From Fictibacillus sp. FJAT-27399 (GTDB lineage Bacteria; Bacillota; Bacilli; Bacillales; Fictibacillaceae): DNA of 64,000 nucleotides. Numbering within the stretch: position 1 is the stretch's first letter; every line of letters begins with the position of its first letter. The notes below the pieces were generated by a model, which saw only the letters and a program-made list of their open reading frames with translations, ran no database searches and had not been told where the DNA came from. This document shows, one piece after another, positions 17,714 through 21,840 of this stretch. Location: NCBI RefSeq assembly GCF_001510655.1, contig NZ_LMVC01000002.1, positions 1,028,379 to 1,092,378 on the forward strand, given 5' to 3'. Position numbers and translations under genes: made by a program.

Positions 17714-18592
17714 ATGGATATCCAACATTACCTGCAAGGCAAAAGGCAGCTCATCAATGATCATCTCCCTTCCTTTTTAGCTGAAAAATCCATTCCTAGC
17801 CTATTAAAAGATTCCATGCTCTATTCGCTTCAAGCAGGAGGAAAACGGCTGAGACCCATCTTGACATTGGCTGTTCTTGATGCGTTCGGAAAGAATTCGG
17901 AAGCTGGTATTGAAGCCGCCTGTGCACTTGAGATGGTGCATACATATTCATTGATCCATGATGATCTTCCTTGTATGGATGATGATGATTACAGGAGAGG
18001 CAAGCCGACTAACCATAAAACTTTCGGAGAAGCGACAGCCATACTGGCAGGGGATGCACTGTTAACGTTCAGTTTTCAGATGATTGCTGGCAGCAGCACG
18101 TATACCCCCGAACAGAAAGTGGCCCTTCTTACCATTCTGTCCGAAGCATCCGGGGCAGAGGGAATGGTGGCCGGACAAGCTGTGGATATGGAATCAGAAA
18201 ATCAGGAACTGACGATTGAGGAACTGCAATCGATCCATGAAAGGAAAACTGGGCGATTGCTTGAAGCATCGGTTCTTTTTGGCGCTGTACTGGCAGATGC
18301 GGATGCTGAAGAATTCGAGCACCTCGGAGTGTTCAGCCGGCATCTGGGAATCGCTTTCCAGATACAGGATGATATTCTTGATGTGACCGGCGATTCCCAG
18401 CTCATGGGCAAACAAGCCGGAAGCGATGAACATAACTATAAAAGCACCTATCCAAAACTTCTGACTCTTGAGGGAGCCAAGGTACAGCTAGCTCATCATA
18501 TCAAGCTGGCTAAAGATAATCTTCGGAAAACAAAAGTGGATCCTGTCATACTTGAAGGGATCACGGATTATATTGTAAGTAGAAACCACTAG
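17714..18592 (+). CDS. ispA: Farnesyl diphosphate synthase
   Basis: Condenses isopentenyl diphosphate with allylic diphosphates to farnesyl diphosphate, precursor of undecaprenyl carriers and quinone side chains. 292 aa, with the first aspartate-rich motif DDLPCMDDDD, the upstream LQAGGKRLRP substrate loop and the second motif QDDILDVTGD. ATG 17714 sits one base after the xseB stop. It is followed by the OLE RNA region rather than directly by dxs. Confidence 0.95.
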   Translation: MDIQHYLQGKRQLINDHLPSFLAEKSIPSLLKDSMLYSLQAGGKRLRPILTLAVLDAFGKNSEAGIEAACALEMVHTYSLIHDDLPCMDDDDYRRGKPTNHKTFGEATAILAGDALLTFSFQMIAGSSTYTPEQKVALLTILSEASGAEGMVAGQAVDMESENQELTIEELQSIHERKTGRLLEASVLFGAVLADADAEEFEHLGVFSRHLGIAFQIQDDILDVTGDSQLMGKQAGSDEHNYKSTYPKLLTLEGAKVQLAHHIKLAKDNLRKTKVDPVILEGITDYIVSRNH

Positions 18593-18605: not shown

Positions 18606-18634
18606 TTGTTGGTATTCGAGATTTATGGTATGAT
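18606..18634 (+). promoter_or_regulatory. Sigma-A promoter in front of OLE RNA
   Basis: TTGTTG, exactly 17 bp, TATGAT. Predicted start near 18641, which coincides with the beginning of the non-coding, structure-rich segment. OLE can therefore be made independently of ispA read-through. Confidence 0.7.
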
Positions 18635-18640
18635 AGAAAA

Positions 18641-19295
18641 TACTTTGGAGTGGTGCAGTATTCTAGTCAGTCTCCCATTCTTGAAGGCGGGCCTAAAAAT
18701 CCGCCAAAGGGCACATCGATGAAGTTCCTGGTGTTGGCTTGAGGCGCCCAGCCTTGGGTTAACGCTGGGAGTTAAGGTCGCAGGGCGATCCACAATGGCA
18801 TGTGGGCGTTGACCCTGCTTCCGCGGAGACCCCCATCTTTACGGCTTGCGTTCTAATACCTTGCTGTGAAATGGGGTTTGAACCTGTTTATGTTCTGCGA
18901 ACAGCGGAAACATGCAGCGTAGCCTGCCTTGAGTGGAGCTTGAGGGGATTATGGTCATAGGGACGATGGATGGTTGGCCGCCTGAAATCTGTTCATGCTA
19001 TATGAAATCATCTCTGCAAAAGAGGCTAGGGAAATGGGGAAGGGCTGTTGAGGAAAACTCCTAGACTGTTCCCACCGACATTCAAAAAGGATTATAGTGC
19101 GGACTAAGTGGCAATCCAGTCTAACGTTTGGCGACATCGTTAAGGAGGAAGTAAAGGGAAACCGCGGAGATGGCGACATTTCCGTTTCCTCTTGGGAAAA
19201 CCTACTGGACCTAAGCCGCAGCGTTTACTTTTTGAATGACCACTCCTATTACATAATTCAAATGGAACCTTACGTTTGATCTTGGCGTAAGGCGT
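18641..19295 (+). ncRNA. ole: OLE RNA (ornate, large, extremophilic RNA)
   Basis: A ~650-base gene-free, comparatively G-rich segment between ispA and a small membrane protein gene followed by dxs. This is the hallmark position of the OLE RNA, a very large structured bacterial RNA known from Bacillus halodurans and other extremophile or anaerobic Firmicutes. OLE binds the membrane protein OapA as a ribonucleoprotein complex and is linked to tolerance of cold, short-chain alcohols and Mg2+ stress. Hairpins seen directly include 18686-18705 (GGCGG/CCGCC), 18747-18769 (CCCAGC/GCTGGG) and the terminal 19268-19292 (CCTTACG/CGTAAGG). Stops interrupt all frames at short intervals, apart from short shadow frames without ribosome binding sites. 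Ends are estimates: 5' from the promoter, 3' from the last hairpin. Confidence 0.88.
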
Positions 19296-19317
19296 TCATT
19301 ATATTTAGGGAGATTTT

Positions 19318-19917
19318 ATGAAACATTCTTTTCATAAATCGCTAAAATGGAGTACAGGCATTGCCGTTATCACGCTCGTGTTAGCGGCAATTTTTTCAGT
19401 AGCTTCCACCCTGCTGCTGAGTGGTGTATCATGGGGCATGGGTATGGTGATTGTGTTAATTATTGTTCTTATTGGGGTATTTTTTGATATCATTGGAGTA
19501 GCATCAACTGCAGCTAATGAAGTTCCCTTTCATGCCATGGCATCTGAAAAAGTGCCGGGTGCCAGACATGCCATACTAATTACAAGGAATGCTGACAGGG
19601 TAGCCAATTTCTGCAATGATGTGATTGGAGATATATCAGGCATTATCAGCGGAACGGCTTCGGCCGCGGTAATTGTTGAATTGACAATGAACCTTGGGCG
19701 TGGAGAAGGAACGGTGTTTGAACATACAGTTTCCATCTTGTTTACCGGGATTATTGCGTCTATTACGGTTGGAGGAAAAGCGTTCGGAAAATCATATGCG
19801 ATCCATCATGCCACAGCCATTATTTTTCAAGTGGGCCGTTTAATATATTTTTTTGAGGAAAAATTAAAGATTAAACTAATTGATACTTCTTCTAATAGAG
19901 GAAAGAGAAGGAATTAA
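19318..19917 (+). CDS. oapA: OLE-associated membrane protein OapA
   Basis: 199-aa integral membrane protein, partner of the OLE RNA encoded directly upstream. Hydrophobic segments are seen at about residues 13-37 (TGIAVITLVLAAIFSVAS), 40-62 (WGMGMVIVLIIVLIGVFFDI), 108-125 and 130-155, and a basic C-terminal tail (KIKLIDTSSNRGKRRN) that could contact RNA. The layout resembles the DUF21 (CNNM-type) membrane domain, consistent with the Mg2+ link reported for the complex. Start ATG 19318 follows AGGGAG. It ends 21 bp before dxs and is probably co-transcribed with OLE and dxs. Confidence 0.88.
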   Translation: MKHSFHKSLKWSTGIAVITLVLAAIFSVASTLLLSGVSWGMGMVIVLIIVLIGVFFDIIGVASTAANEVPFHAMASEKVPGARHAILITRNADRVANFCNDVIGDISGIISGTASAAVIVELTMNLGRGEGTVFEHTVSILFTGIIASITVGGKAFGKSYAIHHATAIIFQVGRLIYFFEEKLKIKLIDTSSNRGKRRN

Positions 19918-19938: not shown

Positions 19939-21840
19939 ATGAAACTGGAAGATATTCAAAACCCTCAGTTCTTGAAGTCCTACGATCAAGAACAGCTTAT
20001 GAAGCTTGCGCAGGAGATCCGACAATTTTTAATCAGCAAGCTCTCTGTTACAGGCGGGCATCTCGGTGCCAATCTTGGGGTAATAGAACTGACACTTGCC
20101 CTTCATAAGGTTTTTGACAGCCCGAAGGACAAGCTGATCTGGGATGTCGGCCACCAGGCTTATATCCACAAAATGCTGACAGGCAGAACATCGCAATTTG
20201 ATACATTGCGCCAATATAAAGGTTTATGCGGATTTCCGAAACGAGTTGAAAGCGAACATGATGTCTGGGAAACAGGACACAGTTCTACTTCCTTATCAGC
20301 TGCTATGGGGATGGCCATTGCCCGTGATCTAAAAGGGACAGATGAAAAAGTAGTAGCCGTTATTGGAGATGGCGCTTTGACAGGCGGTATGGCTCTTGAG
20401 GCACTGAACCATATCGGGCACGAGAAGAAAGATCTGATCGTCGTTTTAAATGACAATGAGATGTCCATTGCCCCGAATGTCGGTGCTCTGCACAGTGTGC
20501 TCGGCCGCATGAGGACAGCTAAAAAATACAATAAAGCAAAGGATGAACTGGAATCTCTGATCCGCAAAATCCCTGCTTTTGGCGGAAAGCTCGCAGCAAC
20601 TGCTGAAAGGGTGAAAGACAGCCTGAAATACATGCTTGTGTCAGGAATGTTCTTCGAAGAACTGGGATATACCTACCTTGGCCCTGTGGACGGACATGAC
20701 CTTTCTGATCTGGAAGAAAACCTTCGTTATGCGAAAAAGACAGAAGGACCTGTTATTGTCCACGTATTGACGAAAAAAGGCAAAGGCTATAAACCGGCTG
20801 AACAGGACCTTACGGATCATTGGCACGGAGTTGGGCCATATAAAATTGAATCCGGAGAGAAGATTAAAGCGAAACAGGCTGCTCCTTCTTACAGCAAACT
20901 CGTCAGTGATACACTGAGTACGTTGTCAGAGACTGATGAACGGGTTGTGGTGATCACACCTGCCATGATCTTAGGGTCACAGCTTCAAGGGTATGCTCAA
21001 AAGTTCCCTGACAGGCTGTATGATGTTGGGATTGCAGAGCAGCATGCCATGACGATGGCTGCAGGGCTCGCTACTCAAAACATGAAGCCCGTGCTTTCCA
21101 TCTACTCTACATTCCTGCAGCGGGCATATGATCAGCTCGTACATGATGTGGCGAGACAAAATTTAAATGTGATCTTAACCATTGACCGTGCAGGACTTGT
21201 TGGAGCTGATGGTGAAACCCACCAAGGCGTTTTTGATATAGCGTTCATGCGCCATATTCCAAACCTGGTGATCGCTATGGGGAAAGATGAGAATGAACTT
21301 CAGCATCTTGTCCATTCCGCGGTGAATTACGATGATGGCCCGATTGCAATTCGGTTCCCACGAGGAAACGGACTCGGAGTTGAATTAGATCCTGAGTTGG
21401 AAGAGATTCCAATCGGAAGCTGGGAAGTATTGAAAGAAGGAAACGAAGCCGTCATTCTTACATTTGGAACAACGGTTCCGATGGCATTGGAAGCTTGGGA
21501 AATCCTTGCAAAACAAGGTGTTTCCGCCAGGGTGATCAACGCCCGCTTCATCAAGCCCTTTGACCATGAGATGATGATGGGAATCCTTCGTGAAGGGTTG
21601 CCGATCCTCACAATCGAGGAAGCAGTCCTGCAAGGCGGTTTCGGCAGTGCAGTTCTTGAGTATGCCAACGAGCATCAGTTCTACTCATCTATGGTAGACA
21701 GGATGGGGATACCGGATTGCTTCATTGAGCATGGGAGTGTAACAAAGCTGCTTGAAGAGATCGGGATGACGACAGAAGCGGTTGTAGAACGGACGAAGAA
21801 GCTCGTTCTAGAAAAAAAGAAAAAGGGTCTATATACATGA
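19939..21840 (+). CDS. dxs: 1-deoxy-D-xylulose-5-phosphate synthase
   Basis: First enzyme of the MEP isoprenoid pathway: pyruvate plus glyceraldehyde 3-phosphate to DXP, with thiamine diphosphate. 633 aa, the usual length. Visible are [13 protein letters not shown], the ThDP-binding [15 protein letters not shown] to [13 protein letters not shown] region, the catalytic Glu in the [13 protein letters not shown] block, and the [15 protein letters not shown] motif. It feeds the same pathway as ispA, and the OLE-oapA unit sits between them. Overlaps yqxC by ATGA. Confidence 0.96.

Follow-up and report, generated by a model that had tools for sequence, protein, structure and literature searches.

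A conserved hairpin within oapA at OLE RNA loci is retained in many Bacillales genomes without an OLE match

The window analyzed here, a stretch of 64,000 nucleotides from Fictibacillus sp. FJAT-27399, contains on its forward strand the gene order ispA, OLE RNA, a gene for an OapA-like protein, and dxs. Few structured bacterial RNAs are larger than OLE. An earlier note on this DNA had recognized an OLE locus from the sequence and proposed a covariance search; we ran it, and the Rfam OLE model (RF01071) matched positions 18634–19259 over model positions 1–616, scoring 508.5 bits (gathering score, 50) with an E-value of 3.5e-147, far above chance. The RNA is full length, and a single copy was detected in the genome. 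The neighbourhood described in that note, with the membrane protein gene between OLE and dxs, was likewise borne out by NCBIfam and Pfam: the upstream ispA (farnesyl diphosphate synthase, 17714–18592) matches NF045485 (E 4e-123) and Pfam polyprenyl_synt, and the downstream dxs (19939–21840) matches TIGR00204 (E 1.7e-281). Within the RNA, the GGCC palindrome at 18976–18979 is the probable L9.3 kissing loop of the OLE dimer, judging from the Rfam alignment and passages of a cryo-EM study (PMC12286853). We found OLE in 32 of the 34 genomes of the window's family. According to the portions of two published accounts available to us, the class comprises 2,822 matches in Bacillota (PMC11332333), and OLE ranks fifth in abundance among RNAs other than rRNA and tRNA (PMC12265935). 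The copy described here is one more member of this known class, and the locus is an ordinary, genuine OLE locus with its OapA partner gene, which is established biology. The note further supposed that this organism may share the tolerance of cold, alcohol and Mg2+ that is linked to OLE in Bacillus halodurans.

The oapA gene (19318–19917, 199 aa) lies directly downstream of OLE. The assignment of its product to OapA is supported by its position, by a weak match to the Pfam CNNM domain (20.9 bits, below the cut-off of 28.4), and by orthologues that track OLE, since the 32 of 34 family genomes that have OLE are also those with intact oapA beside it. The weak CNNM similarity of OapA is already on record in the published text we consulted (PMC11332333). 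The nearest relatives of the gene among named genomes are those of Fictibacillus species (F. terranigra, 96%). The protein had been described as having four helices and a basic tail; the tail is indeed basic (7 K/R and 3 D/E among the last 25 residues), and its hydropathy is compatible with about four helices without resolving four. A second OapA-like protein, 43–44% identical and encoded far from the OLE locus, was observed in three genomes of one genus, g4 (G026:C1:382231-382773, G028:C1:3459554-3460096 and G031:C1:1324001-1324537).

The genome also encodes OapB, a KOW protein whose gene sits between map and infA and which matches the solved OapB (7k9b) with an E-value of 1.2e-34, and an OapC candidate of the L7Ae family, located upstream of an rpsL-like start. 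Full-length OLE with oapA directly downstream, the ispA and dxs neighbours, and the OapB and OapC genes are thus shared with the OLE-OapA-OapB-OapC complex of Halalkalibacterium halodurans. In contrast to that system, the window genome has two full-length MpfA-type proteins (with CNNM, CBS and CorC_HlyC domains) besides OLE. According to a published tendency, which is not a rule, OLE genomes carry at most one MpfA, and the window genome does not follow it. Two or three CNNM matches over the cut-off coexist with OLE in 24 of the 32 OLE-carrying family genomes, a count of domain matches in which the full domain make-up was examined for the two proteins of the window genome.

Upstream of OLE lies a promoter-like site, here called P_ole (18606–18634), consisting of TTGTTG (18606–18611), a 17-nt spacer and TATGAT (18629–18634), with a TG at 18626–18627 that makes the -10 an extended one. 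The earlier note had placed a promoter at exactly these coordinates and with this spacing; its statement that transcription starts at the first structured base is only approximate, as the conserved OLE core starts about 14 nt past the -10 and the Rfam match starts at 18634. P_ole did not appear in a generic promoter scan (8/12 against a cut-off of 9/12). When relatives were compared with a score that rewarded the TG, the best-scoring promoter-like site ended 7–18 nt before the OLE core in 69 of 70 OLE loci; in the exception (L025) a different site scored best. The best reading of these similarities is that OLE probably has its own extended -10 promoter.

Just past OLE, CCTTACG (19268–19274) pairs with CGTAAGG (19286–19292), with a fold z of -4.0. 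This stem lies where it had been reported as the terminal stem of the RNA, but it is not a general OLE end: among 30 family loci it was present in six, all from the window's genus, as a stem of 7 to 9 bp. Being confined to the genus and lacking a clear T-tract, it was dropped as a candidate OLE terminator. Some 70 nt past this stem, within oapA codons 15–27, lies a far more conserved hairpin that had been missed. This element, which we call T_ole (19360–19396), reads GCCGTTATCAC-N4-GTGTTAGCGGC-N2-TTTTTT and comprises a hairpin (19360–19391) with a conserved core (19363–19388) and a T-tract (19391–19396). The surrounding 45 nt fold with -17.1 kcal/mol (z -5.2), and the stable hairpin stands directly 5' of the T-tract, as in an intrinsic terminator. 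A simple terminator scan missed T_ole because of an internal mismatch, and no Rfam family matched the element in a search of the window at E up to 1. When the window's oapA was recoded synonymously 600 times, 6 versions contained a hairpin just as stable ahead of a T-tract. Judged on this one sequence the hairpin is therefore only modestly unusual, and the comparative evidence is much stronger.

For a codon-level comparison, 61 unique oapA ORFs were gathered with the OLE model or the OapA protein as the query, and not by the DNA pattern, and synonymous identity was computed between proteins less than 75% identical. It reached 0.85–1.00 at the stem and T-tract codons (16–18, 21–23, 25 and 26), against 0.22–0.23 at loop codons 19 and 20, 0.68 at codon 24, and a mean of 0.40 outside codons 16–27, where a few single codons were high (maximum 0.96, codon 56). 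The best window of eight codons (21–28) scored 0.82, compared with 0.63 for the highest of 200 codon shuffles. The exact element was present in 52 of the 61 ORFs, and seven had no match within 3 mismatches; one of these seven, L057, is counted there only because the ORF used starts later, and its DNA has the element. The oapA of L057 (Bacillus sp. RAR_GA_16) shows an apparent frame change near the start, perhaps an assembly error, with the hairpin intact.

We then consider the distribution of T_ole in the order. A pattern search allowing up to 3 mismatches across 397 sampled genomes of the window's order found the element in 287 of them, which represent 105 of 135 genera; with the pattern reversed, 8 of the 397 matched. 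OLE was found in at least 225 of the same genomes, a lower bound resulting from stricter filters and from scoring two candidates per genome. Both were found in 215 genomes, the element only in 72, OLE only in 10 and neither in 100, so that the element accompanies 215 of 225 OLE genomes versus 72 of 172 without an OLE match. A dispersed repeat was rejected as an explanation, given the usual single copy per genome and the rarity of the reversed pattern. Some genomes had a second, weaker match, and in one family (f23) one site was listed on both strands. In a sample of the class, the element matched 9 of 360 genomes from other orders and the reversed pattern 8 of 360, which is chance overall, five of the nine having 0–1 mismatches; the window's order contributed 38 genomes to this sample, and 18 of them matched.

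We read 41 of the 72 element-only loci. The element lay between ispA and dxs in 39 of them, in gaps of roughly 170–560 nt, too short for OLE and oapA; of the other two, one (G227) has it upstream of dxs, near where the contig begins, and one (G203) has it elsewhere. Intact oapA was absent beside the element in all 41, and Rfam at the gathering score reported no OLE in the 27 loci searched (17 + 10) and no family at the element there. The only two genomes of the window's family without OLE (G022 and G001, of 34) gave no OLE match at E up to 10 and also lack intact oapA. Their ispA–dxs gaps measure 560 and 374 nt, respectively, and in both one hairpin stands out by eye, that of the window's oapA codons 16–24. 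G001 retains a fragment matching oapA residues 5–41, and G226 likewise retains an oapA fragment. A promoter-like site was found upstream of the hairpin in 13 of 21 OLE-less gaps, compared with 0.57 expected from shuffled sequence, ending 15–83 nt before it; the promoter–hairpin pair thus often outlasts the loss of the sequence between. In each of five families (f1, in two genera, f11, f14, f28 and f42), genomes with OLE occur alongside OLE-less ones, among those read, in which the element persists. Judged by families rather than on a tree, this suggests six or more separate losses of OLE that spared the element.

The remaining classes of genomes were also sampled. Of 18 genomes taken with neither OLE nor the pattern, 17 had a dxs match and 16 gaps were read by eye: seven carried a diverged form or another loop length, eight no recognisable form, and one a promoter-like site with a different terminator. 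In the ispA–dxs gap of L160, the promoter-like site is kept and an unrelated terminator-like stem, GGCTTGC...GCAAGCC, replaces the hairpin. Six loci of OLE-less relatives within one family (L096–L098, L105, L106 and L115) have by eye a common short leader, about ACTACTATGT...GTAGTGCATAGGTTT, between the promoter-like site and the hairpin; it is possibly a small RNA gene left where OLE was. Conversely, 10 of the 225 OLE genomes lacked the pattern, and in all four of these that were read the hairpin is missing while oapA and dxs are present, so that OLE can work without the hairpin, which is not an essential part. Four loci (L091, L092, L094 and L095) carry the element with tlyA rather than dxs after oapA, and the idea that it serves dxs alone was dropped for this reason.

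Arms and tract were compared between 64 OLE loci with the element and 27 loci without oapA, one of which (L154) was checked for oapA only. The arms are identical in 61 of the 64 OLE loci and exact in 18 of the 27 loci without oapA. Nine distinct arm pairs occur; in eight of them a single pair, number 6, 7 or 8, is non-standard. Pairs 1, 3 and 5 vary and yet remain paired, although the events are few; one change is two-sided (C-G to U-A, pair 3, in L159). In the 27 loci the 10 nt after the stem contain on average 6.7 T, versus 3.3 in the gaps, with at least 4 in all 27 and at least 6 in 22. Some OLE-less genomes have a weak tract or have lost it: it reads TATTTTAAAC in L099 and L100 and ATTGTTTGCG in G022, and L164 has none. 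Three OLE-less genomes have a loop of 3, 5 or 6 nt; in the remaining loci compared it has 4 nt. The T-tract, the loops of 3–6 nt and the few compensatory changes favour an RNA hairpin, probably, over a DNA operator of fixed spacing, with covariation sparse.

On these comparisons, the T_ole hairpin is probably a stop signal for transcription, and we think it reasonably likely that P_ole drives OLE and that T_ole ends many OLE transcripts and limits expression of oapA and dxs. OLE would be transcribed from P_ole, and T_ole, in the first 27 codons of oapA, would act as an intrinsic terminator for many of these transcripts, whose 3' ends would afterwards be trimmed towards the fold of OLE. Only some of the polymerases would pass into oapA and dxs, and this partial passage would keep OLE abundant relative to oapA mRNA. 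A terminator about 100–140 nt past OLE would yield many short OLE precursors and few long mRNAs, and would in this way reconcile the abundance of OLE with two reports in the published passages at hand, namely that the OLE gene cluster of H. halodurans gives one polycistronic RNA (PMC12265935) and that the 3' end of OLE is processed (PMC11332333). A terminator could plausibly act within a gene, given that in B. subtilis and many low-GC Gram-positives polymerase moves faster than the ribosomes, according to the part of a study we consulted (PMC13323073); this difference also makes masking of the hairpin by ribosomes less likely. Several observations count against this reading. A plain terminator needs no fixed stem sequence, yet the arms are nearly invariant at OLE loci; two-sided pair changes are few; the T-tract is weak or lost in the OLE-less genomes named above; and ten OLE genomes lack the pattern.

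A stem fixed beyond the needs of termination points to a putative binder. One tentative possibility, to which we give well under even chances, is that P_ole and T_ole together make up a regulatory unit which persists after OLE is gone, and in which a stem-recognising factor would control read-through into dxs, or into oapA and dxs. After loss of OLE and oapA, what would remain is a tiny gene made of a promoter, a variable leader and the near-invariant hairpin, and where OLE is present, control of read-through at T_ole may set the balance of OLE to OapA. The hairpin could instead be mainly a site on the RNA for binding, processing or stabilisation by a ribonuclease, a chaperone or an OLE partner, with weak or absent termination; the invariant stem with its one non-standard pair and the processed 3' end reported in the text available (PMC11332333) speak for this, but intergenic copies conserve the T-tract and the element is kept where OLE was lost, and we hold it to be improbable. 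Equally doubtful is a DNA operator, at which a dimeric regulator bound to the imperfect palindrome GCCGyTAwCAC-N4-GTGwTArCGGC would control transcription into oapA and dxs. It would account for arms whose sequence, not merely their pairing, is kept, and for an element usually present once per genome; however, the fixed half-site spacing expected of such an operator was not found, given the three OLE-less genomes with other spacings, the T-rich tract is one-sided and runs along the operon, and the codons of the tract are constrained as well.

The promoter and hairpin of OLE-less genomes could be neutral leftovers of recent loss, functionless there, and the oapA remnants next to the hairpin in G001 and G226 do show loss in progress, while half of the 16 gaps read in genomes without OLE or pattern have no recognisable form. 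We consider this unlikely, since by eye the gaps vary widely in length and sequence between families whereas two thirds of the arm pairs (18 of 27) are exact, and since the losses that kept the element number at least six, again by families. That the conservation merely mirrors the protein sequence of the first membrane helix of OapA can be set aside almost entirely. The OapA peptide at the hairpin codons is well conserved across the order, but synonymous sites are fixed in the stem and free in the loop, the element persists in genomes without oapA, and four loci (L116–L119) encode similar residues without the hairpin. A coding-only explanation was accordingly rejected, contradicted by the synonymous fixation and by the OLE-less genomes that keep the element.

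Like the intrinsic terminators and attenuators of Bacillales, T_ole combines a GC-containing hairpin with a T-tract on its 3' side and points the same way as the operon; it differs from them in lying within a coding sequence, in a stem that is near-fixed across the order, and in its single internal mismatch. The RAT-type antiterminator sites of the BglG/SacY/LicT family are imperfect hairpins of about 30 nt with a conserved stem sequence and are tied to termination. T_ole is like them in these respects, its own link to termination being a proposed one; unlike them, its hairpin bears its own T-tract, and neither a regulator nor a competing hairpin was found. What is new here is the conserved hairpin inside oapA; OLE RNA beside its partner gene was already known. 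The hairpin was not found in the titles, abstracts and passages searched, a scope outside which the original 2006 OLE paper falls. It goes unmentioned in the portions covered of the literature, including PMC12286853, PMC9723947, PMC10898510 and PMC12054373, and in those of the published accounts of the H. halodurans system. Passages on OLE termination or readthrough and on dxs or ispA attenuation contained no oapA hairpin either, which does not establish its absence from print, and the arm sequences as a text query returned only matches of unrelated subject, judged by title.

The passages of the OLE literature examined offer no explanation of how the level of OLE is set against that of OapA. 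The hairpin in oapA is a concrete, testable control point, as synonymous changes can break the stem and leave the protein unaltered. If H. halodurans carries the element, ole-oapA deletions would also remove it. That the hairpin survives in species without OLE hints that it may have some function beyond the OLE complex. If the element is indeed a regulatory device that outlives OLE, a hairpin placed within the coding sequence of a membrane helix would tie OLE output to isoprenoid synthesis.
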